From Alloalcanivorax xenomutans (GTDB taxonomy: Bacteria; Pseudomonadota; Gammaproteobacteria; Pseudomonadales; Alcanivoracaceae): a DNA stretch of 64,000 bases. Location of the stretch: the NCBI RefSeq assembly GCF_900217905.1, contig NZ_OBMO01000004.1:1-64000 (forward strand). The letters are read 5' to 3'. This document shows positions 19,497-34,610 of this stretch, piece by piece. A program made the position numbers and the translations under genes. Position 1 is the stretch's first letter. Each line of letters opens with the position of its first letter. Under the pieces are notes generated by a model. That model saw only the letters and a list, made by a program, of their open reading frames with translations, did not search any database and was not told where the DNA came from.

Positions 19497-19925
19497 TCAG
19501 GGCTGCAGGTCCCGCAGCCGGCTCAGCAGATCCATCAACGTCTGATAGTCGTCTTCGCCGAGCCGCTGCTGGATCTTCTGATATTGCCGGTTCATGCCTT
19601 TGCTCATTTGCGCGAATACCTCATGTCCCTGATCGGTGAGGGTGACGCACAGGCGCCGTTGATCCGTTTCCGGTTTCCAGCGGCGAACGTGGCCGGCTTT
19701 TTCCAGACGTACCAGCACGCCGGTAAGGCTGGGCCGGAGAATACAGGCCAGGGCGGCCAGATCACGACTTTCCAGGGTAAAGTCAGGAGCTTGTTTAAGA
19801 ATACGAATGACTCGCCATTGCTGCTCGGTCAAGTTGTGTTTGTTGAGCAAAGGGCGGAAGTACGCCATCACGGCTTCGCGACCCTGCAACAGGGCCAGGG
19901 TGAGGGAGGGTGCGGCTTTGGGCAT
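19497..19925 (-). CDS. hpaR: HpaR-like MarR-family repressor
   Basis: 142 residues, MarR winged-helix length. The core LLNKHNLTEQQWRVIRILKQ, then LESRDLAALACILRPSLTGVLVRLE and the wing around KPETDQRRLCVTLTDQG, match the homoprotocatechuate repressor HpaR. In Escherichia coli strains HpaR represses the hpa meta-cleavage operon and is released by the aromatic substrate. Here the gene is last in that operon, 33 bases after gabD, so it should be under its own control. The likely target is the palindrome CATTAATATATTAATG in the hpa promoter and its near copy upstream of the TRAP genes. Confidence 0.88.
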   Translation of the reverse strand: MPKAAPSLTLALLQGREAVMAYFRPLLNKHNLTEQQWRVIRILKQAPDFTLESRDLAALACILRPSLTGVLVRLEKAGHVRRWKPETDQRRLCVTLTDQGHEVFAQMSKGMNRQYQKIQQRLGEDDYQTLMDLLSRLRDLQP

Positions 19926-19958: not shown

Positions 19959-21431
19959 TTAACCGATGCCCAGACACATGTATTTTACTTCCAGATAATC
20001 CTCTATTCCGTAACGGGAGCCTTCGCGGCCCTGACCTGATTCCTTGATGCCGCCAAAGGGTGCCCGCTCGTTGGAAATAATACCTTCATTAACGCCGACC
20101 ATGCCATATTCCAGCGCTTCACCGACACGCCAGGCGCGTCCCAGATCCCGGGTGTAGACGTAGGCGGCCAGTCCAAACGGCGTATCATTGGCCAGGGCCA
20201 GCGCTTCGTCTTCGTCATGAAACCGGAACACCGGTGCCAGCGGTCCGAAAGTCTCTTCCTGAAACAGCAACATGTCCGGTGTCGCGTCGGCCAGCACCGT
20301 GGGCTGGAAAAAGGCGCCGCCCAGCGCATGGCGTTGTCCGCCGCTGAGGACCCGGGCCCCTTTGCCAATGGCGTCGGCCAGGTGCGTCTCTACTTTACGC
20401 AAGGCGTCTTCATTGATGAGAGGGCCCTGTTGCACGCCTTCCTCGAAGGCCGGGCCGACTCGCAGCGCCGCCACCGATGTGCTGAAGCGCTGGCAGAACG
20501 CGTCGTAGATGCGATGGTGGACCAGAAAGCGGTTGGTGCATACACAAGTCTGGCCACTGTTGCGAAACTTGGAGGCGAGGGCGCCTTCCACGGCGGCGTC
20601 CAGATCGGCGTCGTCAAAAATGATGAACGGTGCGTTGCCGCCCAGTTCCAGGCTGACTTTCTGCATGTGCTGGGCGCTTTGCGCCATCAGTAGCTTGCCC
20701 ACGGGAGTGGAGCCTGTGAACGACAACTTGCGGACCCGCGCATCACCGGTGAGCACCGTGCCTATGGCGGCGGCATCACGTCCGGTCACCACATTGAATA
20801 CACCGGCGGGTATGCCGGCCTGTTCCGCCAGTGCCGCCAACGCCAGCGCCGACAGCGGTGTTTGCGGATCCGGTTTGAGCACCAGAGTGCAACCGGCGGC
20901 CAGCGCCGGCGCCGCCTTGCGAGTGACCATGGCGTGGGGAAAATTCCACGGGGTGATCGCCGCCGCCACGCCCACGGGTTGCTTAAGCACCACCAAGCGC
21001 CGTCCGGTGCGATCGTGGGGAATGATGTCGCCATACACCCGCTTGGCTTCCTCGGCGAACCATTCGAGGAAGCGGGCACCATAGTCGATTTCGCCGAGGC
21101 TTTCCGTCAGTGGCTTGCCTTGCTCCAGACTCAGCAGGCGGGCGAGATCCTGACGGTTCGCCATGACAAGGAGGAACCATTCCTTCAGCAATTCGGCGCG
21201 TTCGCCACTGCTGAGATCACGCCAGGCCGGTAATGCCCGATGGGCGGCGTCCACGGCCATGCTGGTGGCCTCCGCGGCAAGATCCGCCACTTGTGTCACC
21301 TCGGCGCCAGTGGCCGGGTCAGTGACTGAAAAGCGTTGCATGGCGCTGATCCATTTGCCGTCGATATAGGCGTCCTGCCGTAACAGCGCGCTATTTCCGA
21401 GAGCGATTGAGGAGGCAGTGGTGTCAGTCAT
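19959..21431 (-). CDS. gabD: Succinate-semialdehyde dehydrogenase
   Basis: 490 residues of the aldehyde dehydrogenase superfamily, closest in appearance to GabD. The catalytic Glu lies in LELGGNAPF (about residue 262) and the catalytic Cys in NSGQTCVCTNRF (about 295). It oxidises succinic semialdehyde to succinate with NAD(P)+. That aldehyde is the second product of HpaI, encoded two genes upstream, so the gene completes the pathway into the TCA cycle within the same operon. It overlaps the end of the preceding gene by eight bases, which suggests coupling. Confidence 0.92.
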   Translation of the reverse strand: MTDTTASSIALGNSALLRQDAYIDGKWISAMQRFSVTDPATGAEVTQVADLAAEATSMAVDAAHRALPAWRDLSSGERAELLKEWFLLVMANRQDLARLLSLEQGKPLTESLGEIDYGARFLEWFAEEAKRVYGDIIPHDRTGRRLVVLKQPVGVAAAITPWNFPHAMVTRKAAPALAAGCTLVLKPDPQTPLSALALAALAEQAGIPAGVFNVVTGRDAAAIGTVLTGDARVRKLSFTGSTPVGKLLMAQSAQHMQKVSLELGGNAPFIIFDDADLDAAVEGALASKFRNSGQTCVCTNRFLVHHRIYDAFCQRFSTSVAALRVGPAFEEGVQQGPLINEDALRKVETHLADAIGKGARVLSGGQRHALGGAFFQPTVLADATPDMLLFQEETFGPLAPVFRFHDEDEALALANDTPFGLAAYVYTRDLGRAWRVGEALEYGMVGVNEGIISNERAPFGGIKESGQGREGSRYGIEDYLEVKYMCLGIG

Positions 21432-22377
21432 TCAGGTTGATTTCCATTCCATCTCGGCCCACCACGATGGGGCCTTTATATTGATCTCCCACCGCCTTAC
21501 GCCAGACGTCGTCGGTGACCAGAGGATCATCGGCGGGAACGAAATGGCTCAGCACCAGTTTTTTCACGCCAGCCTCGTTGGCGATACGGCCCACGTTTTC
21601 GGCGGTAACATGGTGGGAGATGATGGCCTTGGCCAAGGTGGAGCCGTTGCCGATACGTTTAGCCAGGCGCTCCACTGCTTCCACGTGGACCACCTCGTTG
21701 ATCAGCACGTCGGCGTCTTTGGCGAACCGCGCCAACGGCGGAAAGTAGTTCAGGTCTCCGGAGAGAACGATGGTCTTGCCGCCAGTCTCGAACTTGTAGG
21801 CGAAGGCCTGACCGTCCTTGAACGGAGGGTGCGGCACGCGCAAGGCAGAAACCTTGAGGTGTTCATCCCGATAAACCATGCCCTCATCGATTTCCTTCAC
21901 GGTGACCAGTTCGCGTGGATCGGGCTTCCCTTCGTCGTCAATGCGAAGGCCGATATCCACCTGGAAAGTCTTCCAGGTGTTATCGGTCATCGATTGGGTG
22001 CCTGGAGGGCCGAACACCCGCACCGGCTGCTTCAGACCGCTGGCCCAGCCGTTCATCAATACCGATGGATAATCCAGTACGTGATCGCTGTGCAGATGAG
22101 TGATGAACACACCTTTGAGGCGGGCCAGAGGAATACCGGCCTGAACCAGACGCAGGCTGGCGCCGTAACCTGCATCGAGTAAGTACAGATCATCTCCGAC
22201 CATCAGCGCGGTGGACTGAGGCAGTCGTTGATCGGAAAGCAGGGAGGGGCCGCCCTTGGTTCCCAGCAGTATCAAACGAACCTGCTGCTGCTCCGCCGGT
22301 GCGGCGGCGGCGGTGAACGGAAGCAGAGCGGCTGTGAGTAGCAGCGTCGCGATCAGCGTTGAGCGCAAACGAAACAT
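21424..22377 (-). CDS. Exported metallo-beta-lactamase-fold hydrolase
   Basis: 317 residues from the ATG at 22377. This start has an AAGAGGAAAA upstream and gives a normal signal peptide ending LPFTAAAA; the open frame continues 24 codons further without such signals. The metal motif THLHSDH (about residues 92-98) is intact, with later ligands visible in HPPFKDG, LSGDLNYF and LVLSHF. The layout resembles RNase Z-like or arylsulfatase-type MBL enzymes. It sits inside the hpa operon between hpaI and gabD, so it may prepare a substrate in the periplasm by cleaving an ester, sulfate ester or lactone. That role is inferred from location alone. It is not part of the classical hpa cluster. Confidence 0.82.
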   Translation of the reverse strand: MFRLRSTLIATLLLTAALLPFTAAAAPAEQQQVRLILLGTKGGPSLLSDQRLPQSTALMVGDDLYLLDAGYGASLRLVQAGIPLARLKGVFITHLHSDHVLDYPSVLMNGWASGLKQPVRVFGPPGTQSMTDNTWKTFQVDIGLRIDDEGKPDPRELVTVKEIDEGMVYRDEHLKVSALRVPHPPFKDGQAFAYKFETGGKTIVLSGDLNYFPPLARFAKDADVLINEVVHVEAVERLAKRIGNGSTLAKAIISHHVTAENVGRIANEAGVKKLVLSHFVPADDPLVTDDVWRKAVGDQYKGPIVVGRDGMEINLND

Positions 22378-22414
22378 GATTTTTCCTCTTGTTTTAATGA
22401 TGATGGGGAGAGCG

Positions 22415-23215
22415 TCAATACACTGAAGATGGGGTAGGGTTGTCGTCATCCGGTTTAAACTGACCGGCCAGGTTTTTCAGAGCCCCCATCAACAGGCTGG
22501 TGTCCACGCCGACGGCCACGAACAGACAACCCAGGTCAAGAAAATGGCGGGTTTTATCGATATTGGCATAAAGTATGCCGGGGGCCTTGCCCGCGGCCAG
22601 GATGCGGCGAATGGCATCCTCGATGGCGTTTTGCACTTGCGGATGGCCAGGGTTGCCGCGATGGCCCAGAGCCGCACTCAGGTCCGCCGGGCCAATGAAG
22701 ACACCATCGACGCCATCCACCGCGGCGATGGCGTCCAGATTATCCAGGCCGGCCTGGGACTCTATCTGCACCAGCAGACACATTTCGTCATTGGCCTTGT
22801 CCAGGTAGCCGGGCACGCTGTTCCAGCGTGATGCCCGGGCCAGAGCGCTGCCGACACCGCGTATGCCCTCAGGGGGATAGCGCATGTCGCGAACCAACTG
22901 ACGCGCCTGGTCCGCCGTCTCCACCATTGGCACCAGCAGCGTCTGTGCGCCCAGATCCAGATACTGCTTGATCAGAGCAGTGTCGCCCACGGGGGGGCGC
23001 ACCACCGGTTGCGAGCGGTACGGGGCAATAGCCTGCAATTGGGACAGCAGGCTGCGCAGATCATTGGGCGCGTGCTCACCGTCAAGTAACAGCCAGTCAA
23101 AACCGGCGTTGGCCGCCAGCTCGGCGCTATAGGGATGGGCCAGCCCCAACCACAGCCCGATTTGCGGTACGCCTTGCAGCAGGGCCCGTTTGAATGTGTT
23201 CACCGGCATGTCCAT
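22415..23215 (-). CDS. hpaI: 4-hydroxy-2-oxoheptane-1,7-dioate aldolase
   Basis: 266 residues of the class II HpaI/HpcH aldolase family. It splits 4-hydroxy-2-oxoheptanedioate into pyruvate and succinic semialdehyde, using a divalent metal. Visible family features are the N-terminal [20 protein letters not shown], the catalytic [28 protein letters not shown], the metal-binding [11 protein letters not shown], and [18 protein letters not shown] precedes the ATG. It lies 12 bases after hpaH. The C-terminus (about 15 residues, [12 protein letters not shown]) is a polar tail. Confidence 0.96.
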
Positions 23216-23227
23216 GAGATTTCTCCG

Positions 23228-24034
23228 TTAAACAAAACGGCAGGCGATGGCGCCGAGATCACCGTAGTCCACATGAAAGGTGTCGCCGGGGCGCACCGCC
23301 ACCGGGCGAGTGAAGGAGCCACCGAGGATCAACTGGCCGGGTTCCAGACCGATACCGTAGGGGGCCAGCCGGTTGGCGAGCCAGGCCACGCCCTTGGCCG
23401 GATGATTGAGCACCGCCGCCGCGACGCCGGACTCCTCGATCACGCCGTTGCGGTAAAGCACCGCCGAGACACGTCTGAGATCCACGTCCATGGGCCGGAT
23501 GGCGCGGCCGCCCATGACCACGCCGGCGTTGGCGGCATTGTCGGAAATAGTGTCGAAAACCTTGCGGGTCACGCCGCTTTCCGCATCCACCTGCTGAATG
23601 CGGGCGTCGATGATTTCCAACGCCGGAATTACATACTCGGTGGCATCGTAGACATCGAAGAGGGTGCAATCCGGTCCTTGCAGCGGCTTGCCGAGCATGA
23701 AGGCCAGTTCCACTTCCAGGCGCGGCACGATGAAACGGTCGCAGGGAATGTCACTGCCCTCATTGAACAGCATGTCATCCAGCAAGGCGCCGTAGTCCGG
23801 TTCGTCAATGTTGGATGAAACCTGCATGGCGCGGGAGGTGAGGCCGATTTTATGACCGATCAGCTTGCGGCCGTCGGCGATTTTTTTTTCCACCCAGGCG
23901 CGTTGGATGGCATAAGCGTCCTCGATGGTGATGTCCGGTTGTTCCAGTGACAGCTGCCGGATCTGGGTACGCCGCTGTTCGGCGTCGTCGAGCCGCCGCG
24001 CGGCCTGGCGAATGAAAGCCTCGTCGAGCATCAA
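23228..24034 (-). CDS. hpaH: 2-oxohept-4-ene-1,7-dioate hydratase
   Basis: 268 residues, the usual HpaH/MhpD length. It adds water to the 2-oxohept-ene-dioate formed after decarboxylation, giving the HpaI substrate. Recognisable segments are [33 protein letters not shown], then [15 protein letters not shown] with the metal-ligand Glu residues, and [31 protein letters not shown]. Its start overlaps the hpaF stop (ATGA). Confidence 0.96.
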
Positions 24035-24420
24035 CTCTCCCCTTTGAGAAAGGCGTGGATGTTGTTGTGTTTGAAGTTCAGATCCGGGTTCAACTCGGTC
24101 ATCTCGAAGGACACCGCCAGCAGTCGCTTTTCCTGTAACGGGGCGAAGTGGGCCTTGATGACCTCGAACAGTGTTTCCGCCACCCGCCGACGTGTCGCCA
24201 GATCGCGGCCGCTGCCGACCTTGAGCGTCATGTGTACGAAAGCATAATCGTGTTGGCCGTCGGCGATGCGCCAGGTGTCGTGACGAATGGCGCGGCTGCG
24301 GATGCCGCCGAGTGGAAACACGCCACTGTTACCGAGAGCCTCGTGGACGTTGGCGAACAGACCGTCGAAATCCACTTCGGGTTCGAGGTTGCCGCTGTAT
24401 TCAGCAATGAAATGGGGCAT
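24031..24420 (-). CDS. hpaF: 5-carboxymethyl-2-hydroxymuconate delta-isomerase
   Basis: 129 residues, tautomerase-superfamily (CHMI) size. The N-terminus after Met is [12 protein letters not shown], giving the conserved catalytic Pro-1 once Met is removed. The segment around [32 protein letters not shown] carries the substrate-binding Arg and His residues of the family. It isomerises the muconate produced by HpaE before decarboxylation by HpaG. CGGAG precedes the start and the gene is coupled to hpaH downstream. Confidence 0.95.
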
Positions 24421-24462: not shown

Positions 24463-25326
24463 TTACCAGGGCAGGGGGAACACCGCGTTGATCTGGCCGG
24501 TGCCGGAACTGCCGAACGGTTCGGTAAGAATCTCCACCGGCTTGTCGTATTCGGCGCCGCCGAGCAGGCCCAGCAACATGGCGGTGTCATGCATGCCGCC
24601 TTCGCCATAGCAGTGCTCGGCATAGTCCGGCAGCATGGCGCAGAACTCCCCGAAGCGGCCCTGGCGCCACAGGTCCACCACCCTCATGTCCACCTGGCGA
24701 TCGAACTCGCGGGTCCATTTGTGCAGGTTGTTCTCCGCTTCACGATCGTCGGAAAAACGGTGGGAAAGCGATCCCGAAGCCAGTACCAGAACTTTGTGAT
24801 CGCTGGCCTCGATGGCGCGGCGTACGGCGGCGCCGAAGGTGAAACTGTCCTCCAGCCGGTGCCAGGCGTTCCAGGCGGCTATGGAAATGACACTCAGATG
24901 CTGTTCCTCGGGCACGTCCATGTGCATGTAGCGCATGGGCACCAGGGTGCCGTACTCCAGTTCCAGACTGGGGATGTTGTGAGCCAGGGTGCGCACGCCA
25001 GCGGCGTTGGCCTCGGCGGCTATGTTTTCTCCCAGCGCGGGGTTACCGCCATAACGGTAGCGCATGTCCTTGATGAAGTGCGGCAGCTCGTTGCTGGTGT
25101 AGATGCCTTCAAACCGTTCACCGCAGTTGATGTGAAAGCCGCTGTTGACCAGCCAGTGCACGTCGAACACCACGGCGGTATCGGCGCCGAGCTCACGGGC
25201 ACGGCGGCCGATTTCCTTGTGGCCGTCGATGGCCGCCTGCCGGCAGCCTTGATGTTTGCCCGGCAACTCCGACAGGTACATGGAGGGCACGTGGGTGATT
25301 TTAGCGGCGAGAACGACTTCGCCCAT
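24463..25326 (-). CDS. hpaD: 3,4-dihydroxyphenylacetate 2,3-dioxygenase
   Basis: 287 residues of the LigB-type (class III) extradiol dioxygenases, matching enterobacterial HpaD. It opens the ring of homoprotocatechuate with O2, giving 5-carboxymethyl-2-hydroxymuconate semialdehyde. The N-terminus has AAKITHVPSMYLSELPGKHQGC, with a His in the iron-ligand position. FDVHWLVNSGFHINC and LVLASGSLSHRFSDDR carry other conserved His residues. AAGGAGAAAAA precedes the ATG. The gene fixes the pathway substrate as a homoprotocatechuate-type catechol. Confidence 0.96.
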   Translation of the reverse strand: MGEVVLAAKITHVPSMYLSELPGKHQGCRQAAIDGHKEIGRRARELGADTAVVFDVHWLVNSGFHINCGERFEGIYTSNELPHFIKDMRYRYGGNPALGENIAAEANAAGVRTLAHNIPSLELEYGTLVPMRYMHMDVPEEQHLSVISIAAWNAWHRLEDSFTFGAAVRRAIEASDHKVLVLASGSLSHRFSDDREAENNLHKWTREFDRQVDMRVVDLWRQGRFGEFCAMLPDYAEHCYGEGGMHDTAMLLGLLGGAEYDKPVEILTEPFGSSGTGQINAVFPLPW

Positions 25327-25380: not shown

Positions 25381-26841
25381 TCACACGCCCCAGCGGGGAA
25401 TGTGGTGACTGCCCATGGAAAGGCAGACGTTTTTGACTTCGGTGAAGGCCTCGAAACTGTATTCACCACCTTCGCGGCCGGTACCGGACTGTTTGACGCC
25501 GCCAAACGGCTGACGCAGATCGCGCACGTTCTGGCTGTTGATGAACACCATGCCGGCCTCGATGCCACGGGCCACCCGGTGAGCCTTGCCGACGTCCCGG
25601 GTCCAGACATAGGAGGCCAGACCGTATTCCACGTCGTTGGCCAGTTCCAGCGCTTCGCGTTCGTCCTTGAATTTACCCAGACACACCACCGGGCCAAAGA
25701 TCTCTTCCTGGCAAATGCGCATGCGATTATCCACGTCGGCGAACACGGTGGGTTGAATGAACTGACCGTTGGCGACCCGTTCCGGCAGCCCGGCCGGACG
25801 CTCCAGGCCGCCGGCCACTAATTTGGCGCCTTCCTCGATACCCAGACGAATATAGCCGGTGACCTTCTCGTAATGCTGACGAGTGATCATCGAGCCCACC
25901 TGGGTTTCCGGATCGGTGGGGTCGCCCACTTTCAGGCGTTTGGCGCGCTCGGCGAAGGTCTTCACGAACTCGTCGTAAACACTTTCCTGAATGAAAATAC
26001 GGCTGCCGGCGGTGCAGCGCTCGCCGTTCAAGGAGAAAATGGTGAACAACGCCGCGTCCAGGGCCCGATCCAGGTCCGCGTCCTCGAATACCAGCACTGG
26101 CGACTTGCCGCCCAGCTCCATGGAGTATTTCTTCATGCCGCCGTTCTGCATGATCTTGCGGCCGGTGGTGGTGCCGCCGGTGAACGACACCGCGCGGACG
26201 TCCGGGTGGCGTACCAGGGCGTCACCGGCGGTGGCGCCGTAACCCTGGATCACGTTGAACACGCCGTCGGGCAGGCCCGCTTCCTTGGCCAGCCGGCCCA
26301 GTTCGTTGGCGGTGAGCGGCGAGAGTTCCGACATCTTGAGCACGGCGGTGTTGCCCAGTGCCAGGCAGGGAGCGGTCTTCCAGGTGGCGGTCATGAACGG
26401 CACATTCCAGGGCGATACCAGTGCGCAGACCCCGACCGGCTGGTACAGGGTGTAATTGAGCATCTGGTCGTCCACCGGATAACTGTGCCCGTTCATGCGG
26501 GTGCACACCTCGGCGAAAAAGTTGAAGTTATGCGACGCGCGTGGAATCAGCACGTTTTTGGTCTGATGGATCGGCAGACCGGTATCCAGCGTTTCCAGCT
26601 CCGCCAGTTTCGGTACGTTCTCATCGATCAGCTCCCCGAGCCGGCGCATCAACCGCGCCCGTTCCTTCGCGGGTGTGGCGGCCCAGCCTGGAAAAGCGGC
26701 CTTGGCGGCGGCCACCGCCTGATGGACTTCCTTTTCGGTACCGCTGGCCACCTGGCCGATCACTTCGCCGGTGGCGGGGTTGATGTTGTCGAAGGTCTCG
26801 TCGCTGGCCACCTGCTGGCCGTTAATCCAATGCTTGATCAC
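25381..26841 (-). CDS. hpaE: 5-carboxymethyl-2-hydroxymuconate semialdehyde dehydrogenase
   Basis: 486 residues from a GTG start, with GAGGAG seven bases upstream overlapping the end of hpaG2. It is an aldehyde dehydrogenase with catalytic Glu in MELGGKSPV (about residue 243) and Cys in NGERCTAGSRIF (about 277). N-terminal KHWINGQQVASDETFDNINPATG is typical of HpaE. It oxidises the ring-cleavage semialdehyde to the dicarboxylate with NAD+. The gene order G1-G2-E-D-F-H-I is the classical hpa order. Confidence 0.96.
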   Translation of the reverse strand: MIKHWINGQQVASDETFDNINPATGEVIGQVASGTEKEVHQAVAAAKAAFPGWAATPAKERARLMRRLGELIDENVPKLAELETLDTGLPIHQTKNVLIPRASHNFNFFAEVCTRMNGHSYPVDDQMLNYTLYQPVGVCALVSPWNVPFMTATWKTAPCLALGNTAVLKMSELSPLTANELGRLAKEAGLPDGVFNVIQGYGATAGDALVRHPDVRAVSFTGGTTTGRKIMQNGGMKKYSMELGGKSPVLVFEDADLDRALDAALFTIFSLNGERCTAGSRIFIQESVYDEFVKTFAERAKRLKVGDPTDPETQVGSMITRQHYEKVTGYIRLGIEEGAKLVAGGLERPAGLPERVANGQFIQPTVFADVDNRMRICQEEIFGPVVCLGKFKDEREALELANDVEYGLASYVWTRDVGKAHRVARGIEAGMVFINSQNVRDLRQPFGGVKQSGTGREGGEYSFEAFTEVKNVCLSMGSHHIPRWGV

Positions 26842-26844
26842 GGG

Positions 26845-27615
26845 TTACTCCTCGGTATTCCTGAAAAAGTCGCTCTCGCTGACCATGTGGTTGCGCAGCC
26901 TGCCGATCCCTTCTATCTCCACGTCCACCACATCACCGGGCTGGACGTCGGCCATGCCCTTGGGGGTGCCGGTAGCGATCATGTCGCCGGGAGACAGGGT
27001 CATGAAGCCGGACAGATACTCGATCAGGAAAGCGACATCGAAAATCATGTCGGCGGTGGTACCTTCCTGGCGCAGCTCACCATTGATGTAGGTGCGCAGG
27101 CGCAGGTCATTGGGGTCGGGCACATCGTCACGGTCGACGATCCACGGGCCCACCGGGGTGGTGCTGTCGCGATTTTTCACCCGCAAATTGGGGCGGTAGT
27201 AGTTTTCCAGGTAATCGCGAATGGCGTAGTCGTTACACAGGGTGTAGCCGGCCACAAAGTCGAGGGCGTCGGCGCGCGGCACATTACGCGCGGTCTTGCC
27301 GATGACCGCCACCAGCTCGCACTCGTAATGCATGTACTCGACGTTGTCCGGGCGCCAGCTGCGGCCGTTGTGACCGGTGTAGGCATTGGCGGCCTTGACG
27401 AACACCAGCGGTTCCTTGGGCGCTGCCTTGAAGGACAGTTCAGCGGCGTGGTCGGCGTAGTTGAGTCCCAGGGCGAACATGGTGCCGGTGGCGGGCGGCA
27501 GCCAGGTGACCTGTTCCGGGTCCAGTATCGTACCGTCCGCGAGCAGCGGATGGCCGTCGTCATTCACGGCCACCGCCAGCGTGTCGCCGTGGTATTGAAT
27601 GCGTGCACTTTTCAT
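26845..27615 (-). CDS. hpaG2: Homoprotocatechuate pathway decarboxylase/isomerase, HpaG2-type subunit
   Basis: 256 residues of the fumarylacetoacetate-hydrolase fold. In many bacteria HpaG is one bifunctional protein of two such halves; here the halves are separate genes. This half keeps the metal-ligand pattern: YECELVAVIGK (Glu-x-Glu) and later WIVDRDDVPDPNDL. TGTPKGMADVQPGD is also conserved. It should carry the decarboxylase/isomerase activity. Its ATG overlaps the hpaG1 stop by four bases. Confidence 0.93.
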   Translation of the reverse strand: MKSARIQYHGDTLAVAVNDDGHPLLADGTILDPEQVTWLPPATGTMFALGLNYADHAAELSFKAAPKEPLVFVKAANAYTGHNGRSWRPDNVEYMHYECELVAVIGKTARNVPRADALDFVAGYTLCNDYAIRDYLENYYRPNLRVKNRDSTTPVGPWIVDRDDVPDPNDLRLRTYINGELRQEGTTADMIFDVAFLIEYLSGFMTLSPGDMIATGTPKGMADVQPGDVVDVEIEGIGRLRNHMVSESDFFRNTEE

Positions 27616-28388
27616 TGTTTCGCCTCCCCGCCGTGGTCGGTGACGATAAGGTTGCGGAGGGTGCCGATGCTCTCGATGGTGGTGTCCACCTGATCCCCTT
27701 CGCTGACATCCACCCGGCCTGGCGGTGTTCCAGTGATCAGCACGTCGCCTTCGTTCAAGGTCATGAATTCGCTCAACTCGGCGATCAGGCGGGGAATGGG
27801 CCGAATCAGATCGGCGGTACTGCCGCGCTGCTTTTCGACCCCGTTAACCGTCAGGGTCAGCGTGAGGTCATGGGGGTTGGCGATATCGTCGCGGTCTACC
27901 CACCAGGGGCCCAATGCGCAGAAACCGTCCCGGCACTTGGCTTTGATCGCCGGCCGGTAGTAGCTGTCTTCCGGCAGGCTGAACTCGTTGACCACGGTGT
28001 AGCCGCGAACATAATCGAGGGCGTCCTGCTCACTGATACGACTGGCGCGGCGACCGATCACCACGCCCAGGGCGGGACCCGGTTGCAATCGCTCCCCCTG
28101 AGGCCGTGCCACGGTGCCCTGGTGCGCATTGCGCGTGTTCGGGGTCTTGATGAACAACACCGGCTTCTCCGGTGGCTTCTGGTAGGGCGGCTGGTGAAAC
28201 TCCGGTAGCCGGGCCTCCAGCAGACTCCGATAGTTCAAGGCCACACCGAACAGAGTGCCACCACTGGCCGGGAGCCAGCGCAGCGCGGTGACGTCAAGAA
28301 CCGCGCCGTCGTCGCTTATGGGGAGGTCGTCCGGACCGATCGTGACCGTCCGGACGCGCCCTTGATATTCCACTTTAGCGTGCCGCAT
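27612..28388 (-). CDS. hpaG1: Homoprotocatechuate pathway isomerase/decarboxylase, HpaG1-type subunit
   Basis: 258 residues, FAH fold, first gene of the operon and similar along its length to hpaG2. Where HpaG2 has the Glu-x-Glu metal motif this protein reads QPGPALGVVIG, so at least two metal ligands appear to be missing. It probably forms a heteromeric complex with HpaG2, equivalent to the N-terminal half of fused HpaG. AAGGAG precedes the ATG. The promoter with an embedded palindrome lies 30-60 bases upstream. Confidence 0.92.
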   Translation of the reverse strand: MRHAKVEYQGRVRTVTIGPDDLPISDDGAVLDVTALRWLPASGGTLFGVALNYRSLLEARLPEFHQPPYQKPPEKPVLFIKTPNTRNAHQGTVARPQGERLQPGPALGVVIGRRASRISEQDALDYVRGYTVVNEFSLPEDSYYRPAIKAKCRDGFCALGPWWVDRDDIANPHDLTLTLTVNGVEKQRGSTADLIRPIPRLIAELSEFMTLNEGDVLITGTPPGRVDVSEGDQVDTTIESIGTLRNLIVTDHGGEAKQ

Positions 28389-28417
28389 GAAGGCTCCTTG
28401 TTTTGTTAATAGGTTAA

Positions 28418-28446
28418 TGTTTACATTAATATATTAATGAAATCAA
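28418..28446 (-). promoter_or_regulatory. hpa operon promoter with palindromic operator
   Basis: On the minus strand TTGATT (28446-28441) and TAAACA (28423-28418) are 17 bases apart. The perfect palindrome CATTAATATATTAATG (28424-28439) fills the spacer. Further TTAAT half-sites continue to 28405. HpaR is the likely ligand; a repressor here would block RNA polymerase directly. Confidence 0.7.
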
Positions 28447-28508
28447 GAAGACGTTGCCGGATCCGCTAAAGCGGTGAATGATGCCGGTATCAGGCGGCGG
28501 GCAGGACC

Positions 28509-29408
28509 ATGACAACAACCGACCCCATACCCAACATCAACATCGGTCAGGTGTACGACAAGCGCTACGCCGACGCTGAAGTGCACTACGACGCGCTCGG
28601 CCGCATGGCGGACTTCTTCGGACGCAACATGCCGGCGCACCGCCATGTGCGCTTCTTCCAGGTACATTACGTCAAGTCCGGCATGGTGCGGGTGTACCTG
28701 GATGAGCATCAGTACCATCAGCGGGCCCCCCTGTTCTTCCTCACGCCACCCACGGTGACCCACGCCTTCGTCACCGATGCGCACGCTGATGGCCATGTGC
28801 TCACGGTGCAGCAGCAATTGGTGTGGTCGCTGCTGGAGGAAAGCGGTGACCTGGGCGACGTCAGTGATATCGCCGCGCTGTGTGTGGCGGCTTCCCAACT
28901 GCCGGCGGCACAGGCACCGGCGATGGCGGGACTCGACCGTCTGTTTGATCAGCTGCGCGCGGAAATTCAACGGCCGCGGCCAGGGCAGTCTCAGGCGGTG
29001 CGGGCCCTGGCGCAGTTGATCTTCATCGATCTGTTCCGGCTGGCACGCAACCGCGTGACGCCGCAGCCGGTACGTCATGAGGACCTCTCCCTATTTCAGC
29101 GTTTTCAGATGCTGATCGAGGATCATTACCCGCATCACTGGACCCTGACCCGCTATGCCGACGAACTGGGTGTTACCGAGAACCGGCTCAACGAGATTTG
29201 CCGGCGCACCGCCGGCAAATCCAGCAAGCGGTTGGTGTTCGACCGACTGATGCAGGAGGCCCGCCGGTTGCTGATCTTCACCACCGCGTCGATCAACGAG
29301 ATCGGCTACCAGCTGGGCTTTAATGACCCCGCTTATTTCTCACGCTTTTTTACCCGCGAAGCGGGCATGACACCGGGGCGCTACCGCGCCGACAAGCGGG
29401 CGCCCTGA
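28509..29408 (+). CDS. hpaA: HpaA-like AraC-family activator
   Basis: 299 residues, the length of enterobacterial HpaA. The N-terminal part is a cupin-like effector domain (PNINIGQVYDKRYADAEVHYDALGRMADFFGRNMPAHRH). The C-terminus has two helix-turn-helix units: YADELGVTENRLNEICRRTAG and INEIGYQLGFNDPAYFSRFFTREAGMTPGRYR. In E. coli HpaA activates the hydroxylase genes hpaBC in response to hydroxyphenylacetates. Here it is divergent from hpaG1 and convergent with the FAD monooxygenase gene, ten bases apart. It probably activates the monooxygenase and/or TRAP promoter. Confidence 0.9.
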   Translation: MTTTDPIPNINIGQVYDKRYADAEVHYDALGRMADFFGRNMPAHRHVRFFQVHYVKSGMVRVYLDEHQYHQRAPLFFLTPPTVTHAFVTDAHADGHVLTVQQQLVWSLLEESGDLGDVSDIAALCVAASQLPAAQAPAMAGLDRLFDQLRAEIQRPRPGQSQAVRALAQLIFIDLFRLARNRVTPQPVRHEDLSLFQRFQMLIEDHYPHHWTLTRYADELGVTENRLNEICRRTAGKSSKRLVFDRLMQEARRLLIFTTASINEIGYQLGFNDPAYFSRFFTREAGMTPGRYRADKRAP

Positions 29409-29418
29409 GTCCGGGGTG

Positions 29419-31320
29419 TCATCGGCGCTGCCGCAGCATGGCTCCATCGAAGAAGGCGGCCAGTTCATCGGTGGCGTCCAGAGCGGTCACCAGTGAAACG
29501 TACTGATCCGGCCGCACCACCACCACCGCGCCTTTTGGATCGATACCCCGGGCCTCGAAGATGTCGTGCTCCGGGTCGACGGCGTAAACCTTTTCGTAGT
29601 CCGTCAATTGGAACGGGCCGACCTTTGGCATGAACAACGCCGGAATCATTGGGCCGAACTCCACCTCGCCATGGGGCCGTCGATAGATCACCTTTATATC
29701 GAAGAGACTGTCGAGATCAGTTTTTTCCGGAGTGTATTTCACCACCGGAGAACGGGGGCTGTTGAGCATCCAGTCGGCCCAGTTGGCCAACGGGGAGTGC
29801 CCGGTGGGAGCCGATTGATCGGCGAAGACATAGATCCGCCAGCGGCCATCGGCGGTGGCATGGTGCCCCAGGTGAACGTCATTGCCATCGCACACCCGCA
29901 TGGCGGGGGCGGATTTGAACCGCTTGCCGACCGGGAAGCCGGTGGCCAGATGTTGGTGTGCCTTGCCGCCGGTGATCATCGACGGTTGATATTCGGTCAT
30001 GAAGCCCGCTGGGAATTCGGCGGTTTTGACATAGAACTCCTTCAGCTCTTGCGGGTTGCTGAATTCCTCGGCCGGTTTGGCCATCAGGCTCGACCATTCG
30101 CGATCAAAATCAATCAGGTTCTGAGCCACCACCTGACGCTCACTGGAATAGGTTTCCAGCAGCGATTCCGGAGCGATGCCGGAGAGCACGTGGCCCAGTT
30201 TCCAGGCGATGTTCCAACCATCCTGCATGGACACATTCATGCCCTGGCCGGCCTTGGCGCTGTGGGTATGGCAGGCATCGCCGGTGATGAAAACGCGTGG
30301 CGCGCGGGTGCCGGTAGCCTCGGGGGGCACGTCATCGAACTTGTCGGTTACCCGGTGGCCCACTTCGTAGACGGTGTACCAGGCGCAATCCTTAACTTCC
30401 AGGGTGTAGGGGTGGAGGATTTGGTTGGCCTTGGCGATGGTGGTTTCCAGCGTGGTTTGGCGTATGCGGCGGTTGTCATCCCCGGCCACTTCGCCAAGAT
30501 CGACGTACATGCGAAACAGGTGACCGCCCTCGCGGGGAATGTGCAGAATACTGCCACCGGAGGCGGACTGGATCGCGCACTTGGTGCGGATGTCTGGAAA
30601 ATCGGTGGTGGCGAGAACATCCATGACGCCCCAGGCGTGATTCGCGACCTTGCCGATGTGCTTGCGGCCGATCGCTTCGCGCACGCGGCTATGAGCCCCA
30701 TCGCAACCGATCACGTACCTGGCTTTCACGGTACGTTCCAGACCTTCCTGATCGCCGCAGACATGGCGCAACGTCACCGTCACCGGATAGTCCTCGCCAT
30801 GATCGATGCGTAAATCCTGGAATTCCAGCCCATAGTCCGGAGTCAGGCGGGCGGGGGCGTTACGGGCGAACTCGGCGAAATAATCCAGCACCCGAGCCTG
30901 GTTGACGATGAGATGAGGGAACTCGCTGATTTCGCCGCTGGCGTCATCGGGAGCCACCGAGGAGCGGACAATGTGGGAGGGGTTGTCCGGGTCCGGTGTC
31001 CAGAACGCCATCTCGGTGATCCGGTAGGCCTCGGCGGTGATCCGTTCGGCGAAGCCGAACGCCTGGAAGGTTTCCACACTGCGCGCCTGGATACCATCGG
31101 CCTGGCCCAGCCGCAGGCGCCCGGGGCGGCGTTCGACGATACGGGTGGTGATATTCGGAAACTTCGCCAGCTGGGCGGCGGCGATCATTCCCGCCGGTCC
31201 GCTGCCGACAATCAGCACGTCGACCTGGTCCGGCAAAGTGTCGGGGCGGTTGACCCCGGTGCCGGACGCTTCTTCGATTCTCGGGTCTTCGGATACATAG
31301 CCGTGATGGTGGAACTGCAC
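29419..31320 (-). CDS. FAD-dependent aromatic monooxygenase, 3-hydroxybenzoate 4-monooxygenase-like
   Basis: 633 residues from a GTG start at 31320, which has CAGGAG eight bases upstream. Upstream Met codons in frame lack a ribosome site. It is a group A flavoprotein hydroxylase: VDVLIVGSGPAGM (FAD binding, about residue 35), VIGCDGAHSRVREAIG, and GDACHTHSAKAGQGMNVSMQD (about 347). A C-terminal thioredoxin-like domain has AVDPEHDIFEARGIDPKGAVVVVRPD. Length and motifs resemble MobA and phenol hydroxylases. It should add a hydroxyl ortho to an existing phenolic hydroxyl using NAD(P)H and O2. Beside the hpa operon it is the best candidate for making homoprotocatechuate; the exact substrate is not readable. 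Confidence 0.85.
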   Translation of the reverse strand: MQFHHHGYVSEDPRIEEASGTGVNRPDTLPDQVDVLIVGSGPAGMIAAAQLAKFPNITTRIVERRPGRLRLGQADGIQARSVETFQAFGFAERITAEAYRITEMAFWTPDPDNPSHIVRSSVAPDDASGEISEFPHLIVNQARVLDYFAEFARNAPARLTPDYGLEFQDLRIDHGEDYPVTVTLRHVCGDQEGLERTVKARYVIGCDGAHSRVREAIGRKHIGKVANHAWGVMDVLATTDFPDIRTKCAIQSASGGSILHIPREGGHLFRMYVDLGEVAGDDNRRIRQTTLETTIAKANQILHPYTLEVKDCAWYTVYEVGHRVTDKFDDVPPEATGTRAPRVFITGDACHTHSAKAGQGMNVSMQDGWNIAWKLGHVLSGIAPESLLETYSSERQVVAQNLIDFDREWSSLMAKPAEEFSNPQELKEFYVKTAEFPAGFMTEYQPSMITGGKAHQHLATGFPVGKRFKSAPAMRVCDGNDVHLGHHATADGRWRIYVFADQSAPTGHSPLANWADWMLNSPRSPVVKYTPEKTDLDSLFDIKVIYRRPHGEVEFGPMIPALFMPKVGPFQLTDYEKVYAVDPEHDIFEARGIDPKGAVVVVRPDQYVSLVTALDATDELAAFFDGAMLRQRR

Positions 31321-31674
31321 TGTTACTTCTCCTGTTTTCCGGGCCGGCCGGAGGTCTGTGAACATCAAACCGGCCCGCCGCGATTGTTGTTATCGGCGTA
31401 TGACGTTCCGCATCTTGGCCGAGGGGAGAAAACGAACCCAGGTGATTTACGCGGGAAAAATTGCACTTTTCGTGGGGTGCTCGTCGGGGGCGGTACGGAG
31501 AGTGACAAAAGAAAGGCGCCGGCGGTTTTTCCTAATCCTCCGTTGACCTGATCGGGGCGAGGTGTTAGAAATTCATTAATACATTAATGGAATCCGGACG
31601 GGCCAGTGAAAGGAATCGATGGCGAGGATGGATTCCGATGAATAACAATCAGGGTATCAACCCGAGAGGTGTGT
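31321..31674. other. Control region between the monooxygenase and TRAP genes
   Basis: About 350 bases with no credible gene. Its right end holds the TRAP promoter and the CATTAATACATTAATG operator (31543-31589). The left end holds the ribosome site of the monooxygenase gene. I find no comparably clear operator close to the monooxygenase start. Confidence 0.6.
31543..31589 (+). promoter_or_regulatory. TRAP operon promoter with HpaR-like operator
   Basis: TTGACC (31543-31548) and TAGAAA (31566-31571) are 17 bases apart. CATTAATACATTAATG (31574-31589) matches the hpa promoter palindrome in 15 of 16 positions and covers the predicted transcription start. Confidence 0.68.
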
Positions 31675-32724
31675 ATGCATTGCAAAAAAATCATGGCCCT
31701 TCTGGCGATCGTATGGCTGTCCTTGAGCGCCCAGACCCAGGCGGCGGAACAAAAAGAAAAAGTCACTTTACGTATCATGCATTTCCTGCCGGCGGTGGCG
31801 AATGCACAGAAAAACGTGCTGGAGCCCTGGTGCGCCGATCTGGCGGAACAATCCGGTGATCGCATCGAATGTCAGATCTATCCGTCCATGCAATTGGGCG
31901 GTACGCCCGCTCAGCTGGCCGATATGGCTCGTAATGGCGTGGTGGATATTGTCTGGACCGGTCTCGGTTACGCCGCCGGCCGTTTCCCGCGTAGCGAGGC
32001 GCTGGAGTTGCCGTTCGTGATGCCCTCCGGTGGGGTTGATGGCAGTGAAGTGGCGTGGGAATTTTATCAACGCTACGCCAAGGATGATTTCCGTGATTAC
32101 CACGTGCTGGCCATTCAGAGCGACGGTGGTGGTACTTTGCACACCGCGCGCCGCAAAGTGGCCTCCCTGGACGACATGAAAGGGCTGCGAGTACGGGCGT
32201 CCACCCGGCTGGCTTCCGAGTTGCTCACCTCCCTGGGCGCCACGCCGGTGAGCATGCCGCCGGCGCAAATCGCCGACACGCTGGCCAAGGGCGTCATCGA
32301 CGGGGCCCTGGCGGTGTGGGAAGTGGTGCCGCCGACCAAACTGGATGAGACCACTCATTACCATATGCGGACCGCGCCGGATCAGGCCACGCCCACGGTG
32401 ACCACGCTGGCGGTATTGATGAACAAAAAGCGTTATCAGAATCTGCCCGACGATCTGCGAGCGATTATTGACCGGTTTAGCGGAGAGGCCCTGTCCCGCC
32501 GTTTCGGGGAAGCCTGGGATGTGACCATCGATCAGGTGGTGGAGAAACTGTCCGCCGACCCGGACCACGAGATCGTGACGCTGGACGATGCCACCTATCA
32601 GTCCATGCGTGAGGCCTCGCAAAGAGTCACCGATGAGTGGGTGGCCTCCGATAAGGGCGGTATCGACCGCCAGGCGCTGTATCAGGGGCTGCGGGATATC
32701 GTGCGTGAACACGCCGCCCGCTAA
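31675..32724 (+). CDS. TRAP transporter substrate-binding protein, DctP family
   Basis: 349 residues from the ATG at 31675 (GAGAGG five bases upstream; a GTG two codons earlier is too close to it). The signal peptide ends AQTQA-AE. The mature protein begins VTLRIMHFLPAVANAQKNVLEPWC. The family core LDDMKGLRVRASTRLASELLTSLGATPVSMPPAQIADTLAKGVIDGAL contains the conserved Arg that binds the substrate carboxylate, and DGALAVWEVV follows. It captures an organic acid in the periplasm. Given the context, an aromatic acid of the hpa pathway is the likely ligand. A 63-base gap separates it from the small permease gene. Confidence 0.92.
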   Translation: MHCKKIMALLAIVWLSLSAQTQAAEQKEKVTLRIMHFLPAVANAQKNVLEPWCADLAEQSGDRIECQIYPSMQLGGTPAQLADMARNGVVDIVWTGLGYAAGRFPRSEALELPFVMPSGGVDGSEVAWEFYQRYAKDDFRDYHVLAIQSDGGGTLHTARRKVASLDDMKGLRVRASTRLASELLTSLGATPVSMPPAQIADTLAKGVIDGALAVWEVVPPTKLDETTHYHMRTAPDQATPTVTTLAVLMNKKRYQNLPDDLRAIIDRFSGEALSRRFGEAWDVTIDQVVEKLSADPDHEIVTLDDATYQSMREASQRVTDEWVASDKGGIDRQALYQGLRDIVREHAAR

Positions 32725-32787: not shown

Positions 32788-33279
32788 ATGGTTGAAACGG
32801 TATTGCGCCGTCTCAGCATCGTGGTCGCCGTGCTTGGCGGTGCCGTGGTGTTGTCGGTGATCGCCATGTCGCTGGTTTCTCTGCTGGGGCGCAAGTTGTG
32901 GTCCGCGCCGATTCCCGGTGACATAGAAATTCTGGAAATGGCGATCGCCGTGGCGGTGGCCTCGTTCATGCCGTTGTGCGAGCTGCGCGATAACCACATC
33001 CGCGTGGATCTGATCGCCGGGCTGCTACCGGCGGGAGTGAACCGGGTGCTACTGTCACTCAGTCATCTGCTGCTGGCGCTGGTGGCGGCGTTGCTGATCT
33101 GGCGCACCGGCCTGCTCACCCTGGACAGTCATGAATACGGGTCCACATCCACCATGCTGGCGGTGCCGCTGTGGATTCCGCAGATGCTGATGCTGCCCGG
33201 TCTGGCGCTGTTGTGCGCCTGCGCTCTGTATCAGGCGGCACGATCGCTGACCAGCAAGCCGCTGCGGGTGCCGTCATGA
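32788..33279 (+). CDS. TRAP transporter small permease, DctQ family
   Basis: 163 residues with four membrane segments. The segment SLLGRKLWSAPIPGDIEILEMAIAVAVASFMPLCELRDNHIRVDLI is the DctQ hallmark. It forms the membrane complex with the large permease, whose ATG overlaps this stop codon (ATGA). GCCGAGG precedes the ATG. Ion-coupled, usually Na+-driven, uptake is known for the family. Confidence 0.92.
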   Translation: MVETVLRRLSIVVAVLGGAVVLSVIAMSLVSLLGRKLWSAPIPGDIEILEMAIAVAVASFMPLCELRDNHIRVDLIAGLLPAGVNRVLLSLSHLLLALVAALLIWRTGLLTLDSHEYGSTSTMLAVPLWIPQMLMLPGLALLCACALYQAARSLTSKPLRVPS

Positions 33280-34587
33280 GTGGTATGGAAATCGGACTCT
33301 GGGTACTCGGCGGCGTTCTGCTGATTCTGGCGCTGCGCGTGCACGTGGGCGTGGGCATGTTGCTGGGTGGTGTGGCGTGCTATCTGATCGTCAATCACGG
33401 TGACACCACGGCGCTGCTGTTCACCATCAATAATCTGGTTTACGCCCGCTTTTCCAATTACGACCTGGCGGTGATTCCACTGTTCGTGTTGATGGGGCAG
33501 TTCGCCATTCACGGCGGTCTGTCGCGCGCCCTGTTCAAAGCGGCGGCGGCTTTCATTGGTCATTGGCGCGGTGGTCTGGCGATGTCCGCCGCCGGTGCCT
33601 GTGCCGGTTTCGGTGCTATTTGCGGCTCGTCCCTGGCCACCGCCGCCACCATGAGCCAGGTGGCGTTACCGGAGCTGGAGAAACATCAGTACCCGCCCAA
33701 ACTGGCCGCCGGGACGGTGGCGGCCGCTGGTACTCTGGGCATTCTGATTCCGCCGTCGGTGCCGTTGATCATCTATGCCGTGCTCACCGAGGAGTCCATC
33801 GCCAAGCTGTTCATGGCGGCGGTGATTCCTGGTCTGGTGGCGATGTTCGGTTATCTGGTGGTGATCCGCCTGGTGGCGGTACGTACCATGGCGTCGGTGC
33901 CGAGGGTGGACAAGGCCGGCTGGCCTCAACGGTGGCGGGCGTTGCTGGAGGTGTCTCCGGTGCTGTTGATCTTCATCGTGGTGATCTTCGGTATCTATGG
34001 AGGCTGGGCCAATCTCACCGAAGCGGCGTCCATTGGCGCCGCCGCCTGTGGCGTGTTTGCGGTAGTACGCGGTGGCTTGCGCTGGAAAGGGTTGTACCAA
34101 AGCCTGATCGGCACCGCCGAGGCCACCGCCATGATCTACCTGGTGGTGGTCGGCGCCGATCTGCTCAACAGCGGCCTGGCGCTCAGTCAGATGCCGGCGG
34201 AACTGGCGTCCTGGGTTGCCGACAGTGGGTTGGCGCCTTTCGTGGTACTGCTCTCGATTCTGGCCATCTACCTGCTGTTGGGTTGCGTGATGGACTCCCT
34301 GTCCATGATTCTGCTCACCGTGCCGATCTTTTATCCGATCGTGGTCAACCTGGAATTCTTCGATCTCACCTATACCGAAAAGTCGATCTGGTTCGGTATC
34401 CTCGCTCTGATGGTGGTGGAGATCGGTCTGATCACGCCACCCATGGGAATGAACCTGTTTATCGTGCAGAAGTACAGTGCCAATACGTCTTTGGGCACGG
34501 TGAGCCGGGGTATTGTCCCGTTCCTGTACGCGGATGTGATTCGTATCGGCATCCTGGTGATGATCCCTGCCTTGTCGCTGCTTTTGC

Positions 34588-34610
<23 letters not shown>
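33276..34610 (+). CDS. TRAP transporter large permease, DctM family
   Basis: 444 residues from the ATG at 33276, coupled to the small permease. There are about eleven to twelve membrane segments. Family motifs are IPLFVLMGQFAIHGGLSRALFKAAAAFIGHWRGGLAMSAAGACAGFGAICGSSLATAATM, GTLGILIPPSVPLIIYAVLTEESIAKLF, and the C-terminal EIGLITPPMGMNLFIVQ. It is the transport channel of the tripartite system. Its last 23 bases overlap the end of the convergent desaturase-family gene. Confidence 0.94.

Follow-up and report, generated by a model that had tools for sequence, protein, structure and literature searches.

Putative HpaR operators at the promoters of a homoprotocatechuate degradation operon and a neighbouring TRAP transporter in Alloalcanivorax xenomutans

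The first 64,000 nucleotides of Alloalcanivorax xenomutans contig NZ_OBMO01000004.1 (assembly GCF_900217905.1; hereafter the window, to which all coordinates refer unless a locus is named) encode an operon for homoprotocatechuate meta-cleavage (hpa) and, close to it, a TRAP transporter, and palindromes of the form CATTAA-N4-TTAATG at the promoters of both are very probably operators of the MarR-family repressor HpaR. The minus-strand operon runs hpaG1-G2-E-D-F-H-I, followed by genes for a metallo-hydrolase and a succinate-semialdehyde dehydrogenase and by hpaR; hpaA is divergent from hpaG1, and beyond it lie a flavin adenine dinucleotide (FAD) monooxygenase gene on the minus strand and then the divergent dctPQM genes, which encode side by side all three subunits of a TRAP transporter. 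The features are as follows.

19497-19925, minus strand: hpaR, regulator of the MarR family, at the end of the operon (TIGR02337, 163.3 bits against a cut-off of 121.2)
19959-21431, minus strand: succinate-semialdehyde dehydrogenase gene (TIGR01780, above its cut-off)
21424-22449, minus strand: gene for a hydrolase of the metallo-beta-lactamase fold, within the operon (PF12706)
22415-23215, minus strand: hpaI, 4-hydroxy-2-oxoheptanedioate aldolase (TIGR02311)
23228-24034, minus strand: hpaH, 2-oxohept-4-ene-1,7-dioate hydratase (TIGR02312)
24031-24420, minus strand: hpaF, 5-carboxymethyl-2-hydroxymuconate isomerase (NF011605, 179.5 bits, below its cut-off of 215)
24463-25326, minus strand: hpaD, homoprotocatechuate 2,3-dioxygenase (TIGR02298)
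25381-26841, minus strand: hpaE, semialdehyde dehydrogenase (TIGR02299)
26845-27615, minus strand: hpaG2 (TIGR02303)
27612-28388, minus strand: hpaG1, first gene of the operon (TIGR02305)
28404-28419, unstranded: putative HpaR operator 2, TGTTAATAGGTTAATG, TTAA-N4-TTAA, covering the start of transcription predicted for hpaG1, its centre 20 bp from that of operator 1
28418-28446, minus strand: predicted hpaG1 promoter, TTGATT-N17-TAAACA, read by eye, weak consensus
28424-28439, unstranded: putative HpaR operator 1, CATTAATATATTAATG, a perfect palindrome taking up 16 of the 17 bases between -35 and -10 in the predicted hpaG1 promoter
28509-29408, plus strand: hpaA, AraC-family regulator, divergent from hpaG1 (TIGR02297, 401.8 bits)
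29419-31323, minus strand: single-component FAD monooxygenase gene, candidate hydroxyphenylacetate hydroxylase (PF01494 and PF07976; NF006144, 'phenol 2-monooxygenase')
31454-31470, minus strand: conserved box AAAAGTGCAATTTTTCC, candidate HpaA site, upstream of the monooxygenase gene
31543-31571, plus strand: predicted dctP promoter, TTGACC-N17-TAGAAA, read by eye
31574-31589, unstranded: putative HpaR operator at the TRAP transporter promoter, CATTAATACATTAATG, immediately after the -10 predicted for dctP
31675-32724, plus strand: dctP, TRAP solute-binding protein (PF03480)
32788-33279, plus strand: dctQ, TRAP small permease (PF04290)
33273-34610, plus strand: dctM, TRAP large permease (PF06808, TIGR00786); start chosen by us, open frame from 33171

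A single protein in the 4.35 Mb genome scores above the HpaR cut-off (10 others match the model with scores below it), and it is encoded with the meta-cleavage genes hpaG1, G2, E, D, F, H and I. It is identical to the HpaR of A. balearicus MACL04 and 47% identical to that of E. coli, and it shares the sequence ACILRPSLTG in the DNA-binding domain with three of four other aligned proteins, E. coli HpaR among them. The PDB entries 7el2 and 7el3, whose chain is titled homoprotocatechuate degradation operon regulator HpaR, match it with an E-value of 7.1e-35; we take their source organism to be Acinetobacter baumannii. Another PDB match, 5aip, is presumably NadR of Neisseria meningitidis. Residue numbering in that match agrees with the NadR literature (PMC4841544), in which Ser9, Trp39, Arg43 and Tyr115 hold the carboxylate of 4-hydroxyphenylacetate (4-HPA); these align with Ser7, Trp37, Arg41 and Tyr115 of the window HpaR and are invariant in the five aligned proteins. 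NadR is a MarR relative with a 4-HPA pocket whose carboxylate-binding residues are shared, although it governs a different regulon and two pocket residues differ.

The first-pass annotation had placed two 16-mers differing at one base at 28424-28439 and 31574-31589, the former within the spacer of the hpaG1 promoter and the latter over the predicted TRAP start site, and in all of this it was exact to the base. The hpaG1 promoter parts are TTGATT (28446-28441, minus strand), a 17-base spacer (28440-28424) and TAAACA (28423-28418); those of dctP are TTGACC (31543-31548), 17 bases and TAGAAA (31566-31571). The operator that follows, from 31574, is an imperfect palindrome broken at its two central bases. 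The remark that no other copies had been noticed in the window stands for matches to CATTAATRYATTAATG with up to three mismatches, of which there are two (mean 0.12 in dinucleotide shuffles, 2 of 100 of which reach two), but it overlooked the weaker third site at 28404-28419. The genome scan that had been proposed finds CATTAATNNATTAATG with up to two mismatches in seven places (two exact, none with one and five with two mismatches; reversed control three) and CATTAANNNNTTAATG with up to one mismatch in four (two exact; reversed control five). The genome has two exact copies of CATTAAN4TTAATG, both within the hpa-TRAP cluster, and exact copies at unrelated genes are therefore absent; judged against the reversed control, only the exact form stands out.

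The operator itself is already known. All 16 bases of operator 1 recur unchanged in E. coli SCZE5 approximately 30 bp upstream of hpaG (L167:12749), and a study of Yersinia describes HpaR footprints that contain a TTAA-N4-TTAA motif, 'similar to E. coli W', together with higher expression of the operon in an hpaR mutant (PMC7180172). The window thus resembles the E. coli and Y. pseudotuberculosis systems in its MarR-family HpaR, in a TTAA-N4-TTAA inverted repeat at the hpaG promoter and in the operon that the repeat precedes. Of 69 Enterobacterales loci (L040-L108), 61 have hpaG together with an hpaR hit that could be used, many of them from closely related genomes; the other 8 were set aside. 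All 61 carry TTAAN4TTAA at most 450 bp upstream of hpaR, compared with 0 to 8 for each of seven control motifs. A matrix trained solely on these enterobacterial sites ranks the three window sites highest, with scores of 33.1, 26.5 and 20.4 (28404-28419 being third); the next-best score in the window is 7.2, and the maximum over 20 random 64 kb sequences is 11.2. Among HpaR loci at the level of the order, those with at least two hpa genes carry the motif somewhere in 20 kb in 21 of 24 cases (five free-spacer control motifs: 2 to 6 of 24), and those with fewer hpa genes in 9 of 18 (controls 1 to 7), which is no clear excess. The exact motif is present in four of the nine loci that are neither enteric nor from Alloalcanivorax (L034, L037, L038 and L039 of L031-L039) and was not found in L032, L033, L035 and L036, whose stretches end before most hpa genes. 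In Serratia, additional HpaR-type sites lie 188 to 261 bp before a gene that appears LuxR-like by eye, some 5 to 9 kb from hpaR (L084:15279, L066:16405, L106:18270, L107:17831 and L076:15083).

Presence of the site follows the cluster within the family. Each of the eight Alloalcanivorax genomes that show the hpa-TRAP cluster contains the exact pattern twice, compared with none of the five other genomes of the genus and one of the 33 others of the family (46 genomes scanned); no HpaR match at E <= 1e-25 was obtained in 37 of the 38 family genomes outside the cluster-bearing set, and exact copies of the reversed pattern are absent from all 46. CATTAAN4TTAATG occupies the position of operator 1 in seven of the eight HpaR-bearing congener loci, and congeners keep both sites jointly. 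The genus comprises two clades between which the intergenic DNA has diverged while CATTAA-N4-TTAATG is preserved in both promoters, together with the surrounding arrangement of -35, 17-base spacer and -10 (alignment, by eye): TTGAWT and TAMAMA flank the 17-base spacer in which the hpaG1 operator sits, the other clade reading TTGAAT-N17-TACAAA, and the dctP operator lies directly behind the predicted -10. Operator 2 is preserved with small changes in L025-L027, of the window's clade, and is absent from L021-L024; its 20 bp spacing from operator 1, about two helical turns, would suit two dimers bound side by side. The position of hpaR at the end of the operon, also remarked upon in the first-pass annotation, holds in the window and in the seven congener clusters fetched. 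The metallo-hydrolase gene is matched in L025 and L027 and unmatched in the other six congener loci; in one of the latter (L026:17250-17523, genome G019), only a fragment of the succinate-semialdehyde dehydrogenase gene is matched before hpaR. A genome of the family with no HpaR match (G030) contains two exact CATTAAN4TTAATG sites with different spacers on two contigs (C92:15227 and C99:48098).

A functional role for the TRAP operator is best supported by the way such sites track the orthologues of dctP and not its paralogues. Of 390 genomes surveyed across the order, 26 contain DctP matches at E <= 1e-60, which fall into orthologues 60 to 100% identical (eight genomes) and paralogues of 41% identity or less; 30 of the 34 matches could be examined (four had no locus). 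A strong site precedes all eight orthologues, the window's included, beginning 83 to 160 bp before the start of the match, whereas none of the 22 paralogues has one (best matrix score 4.6; for one of them, 289 upstream bases were available). Six orthologue genomes belong to the two Alloalcanivorax clades and the others to two genera of another family. Outside the survey sample, the TRAP site is also present in the congener loci L022 and L024, and Larsenimonas rhizosphaerae shows the same pattern (L038, where dctP is cut by the edge of the locus). Close homologues of the monooxygenase occur in 15 genomes, and in the stretches fetched from five of these (G136, G163, G293, G311 and G356) no dctP orthologue was found; therefore, the link to the TRAP transporter is not universal. 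In two congeners, a third strong HpaR-type site (L021:18242-18257 and L024:1519-1534) stands at the start of a gene that appears porin-like by eye, 2.4 kb past dctM, and outer-membrane uptake may belong to the same regulon.

Taken together, operator type, co-retention in congeners and the difference between dctP orthologues and paralogues give good comparative support to the proposal of the first-pass annotation that one HpaR regulon would join uptake and degradation with negative feedback. In the absence of inducer, HpaR dimers would occupy the spacer and the start of the hpaG1 promoter at two adjacent sites and exclude RNA polymerase, and HpaR over the dctP start would shut that promoter likewise. 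Binding of a hydroxyphenylacetate or of homoprotocatechuate would release HpaR from both promoters, and hpaG1-G2-E-D-F-H-I-mbl-ssadh-hpaR (mbl and ssadh denoting the metallo-hydrolase and succinate-semialdehyde dehydrogenase genes) would be switched on jointly with dctPQM; the first inducer molecules presumably enter through basal expression or by diffusion. Since the repressed operon ends with hpaR, HpaR would repress itself. The sites, the gene order, their conservation, the distribution of sites by target gene and the retained ligand-binding and DNA-binding residues are observations; we infer binding, the sign of regulation, the inducer and the transported substrate, the sign and the inducer because of what is described for NadR and for the HpaR proteins of E. 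coli and Yersinia.

Several observations weigh against this interpretation. The eight dctP cases are confined to two families and are not eight independent events. In the putative inducer pocket, Asn11 and Asp36 of NadR are replaced by Thr9 and Glu34. Neither predicted promoter is listed by a strict sigma-70 scan, both being of weak consensus, and so the transcription starts are predictions. Exact TTAAN4TTAA is missing from three of the 24 hpa-bearing HpaR loci (L132, L140 and L150; L140 is incomplete, and the adjoining stretch L168 of the same genome has sites) and from Halomonas organivorans (L031), in which scores close to the hpa genes reach no more than 17.8 and 11.1. Genome G023 has an open hpaR gene (L028:17540-17968), which reads ACIPRPSLTG at the motif of the DNA-binding domain, with no hpa, monooxygenase or TRAP gene matched in the 20 kb around it, no exact operator in the genome and no monooxygenase match genome-wide; therefore, HpaR there has another role or none. 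In this genome, sites and targets are missing jointly, and by eye the flanks of hpaR resemble the outer neighbours of the window's cluster, with Kef-type, AraC-type and sterol-desaturase-like genes on one side and a TerC-like gene on the other.

Three other explanations were weighed against repression by HpaR at both promoters. That HpaR binds both sites and activates or merely modulates the TRAP promoter, with no simple joint derepression, is improbable, although the sign of regulation is not guaranteed because Y. pseudotuberculosis HpaR activates the promoter of a type VI secretion system (T6SS4) through a bound site; this site is a different and imperfect one, located 241 bp upstream of the start and lacking TTAA-N4-TTAA (PMC7180172), whereas the TRAP site has the geometry of repression, directly behind the predicted -10 just as in E. 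coli, judged by eye, the operator of hpaG follows the likely -10. It is less probable still that the palindrome is read by another regulator, either HpaA, whose gene is located between the two sites, or another MarR protein, such as those among the ten sub-cut-off matches to the HpaR model; the same sequence is associated with HpaR in enterobacteria, where a different box, AAAAGTRC, recurs before hpaB, and no second protein of the genome scores above the HpaR cut-off. Next to no weight can be given to a coincidence in AT-rich DNA or to an unrelated repeat: a few window shuffles do reach two matches and the mismatch-tolerant genome counts are not clearly above the reversed control, but this explanation was rejected on the exact counts in the genome and in the 46 genomes of the family, on the retention of the pattern across diverged clades while flanking bases change, and on the comparison of dctP orthologues with paralogues.

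The cluster differs from the enteric system in ways that involve uptake and the first hydroxylation. E. coli carries hpaR divergent from the operon, and it has a permease gene, hpaX, where here a TRAP transporter with its own putative operator stands; in addition, no HpaB (PF03241) match was found in this genome, in which a two-component hydroxylase of the Acinetobacter type was not sought. The DctP protein is best matched by 5im2, 5iga, 5i5p, 7nsw and 7nr2 (E-values of 1e-66 to 9e-62), in keeping with TarPQM and related aromatic-acid TRAP transporters, from which the system of the window differs in having a putative HpaR operator in its promoter; several of these structures, we assume, stem from work on aromatic acids. 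The best PDB match of the monooxygenase is 2dkh, a 3-hydroxybenzoate hydroxylase that we take to be MobA. Like this enzyme and the phenol 2-monooxygenases it is a single-component FAD hydroxylase, here encoded in an hpa cluster, and its substrate is probably a hydroxyphenylacetate. In a survey of 55 genomes, 51 of which have HpaR and were selected for it, all 15 monooxygenase matches of at least 64% identity lie within 17 kb of hpaR, compared with 1 of 18 matches of 49% or less. The absence of HpaB was rejected as sole proof of replacement, since just 6 of the 51 genomes with HpaR have HpaB at all; G024, which is among the 15 with a linked monooxygenase, has it as well.

In E. coli, HpaA activates hpaBC. 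The box upstream of the monooxygenase gene, AAAAGTGCAATTTTTCC, is identical in six of eight Alloalcanivorax regions and carries a single change in both L024 and L027; AAAAGTRCAAT occurs in five of nine loci of other genera (L038, L039, L162, L168 and L169) and is missing in L170-L173. AAAAGTRC lies between hpaA and hpaB in 44 of 55 enterobacterial stretches (permuted patterns: median 0, maximum 11), a count from which 14 of 69 loci were dropped and in which many of the rest are closely related. An HpaA-driven replacement of HpaBC by the monooxygenase is plausible on this pattern of conservation. The fuller proposal of a rebuilt hpa system, in which HpaR would directly repress a TRAP importer replacing HpaX and a flavin monooxygenase with an HpaA box (AAAAGTRC) would replace HpaBC as 3- or 4-hydroxyphenylacetate hydroxylase, is put forward tentatively, at slightly less than an even chance; variation of the box in L024 and L027 and its lack in four loci lower the odds. 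The operator at 31574 was not taken to control the monooxygenase: that site is approximately 250 bp from the start of the gene, and there is no intervening HpaR-like site among the 12 best of the window. A sigma-54 promoter upstream of the gene was dropped by eye, the spacing from GG to GC being wrong.

Relative to the known operator, the variant features are thus the TRAP target, hpaR at the end of the operon and the linked monooxygenase. If the interpretation is correct, the HpaR regulon extends to a TRAP transporter in bacteria of the Alloalcanivorax, Larsenimonas and Kushneria type, and specific substrates are predicted for a TRAP system and a flavin hydroxylase that are both unassigned so far. 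Among the titles listed from the open-licence literature, none appeared to join HpaR with a TRAP transporter; a regulon database could already hold the link. Because the same operator is found in E. coli and here despite repressors that are only 47% identical, it can be used as bait for further uptake genes. A further HpaR-type site, at L162:5320, lies between dctP and the monooxygenase gene, 233 bp before the gene for a 1012-residue protein whose N-terminal part appears P450-like by eye.

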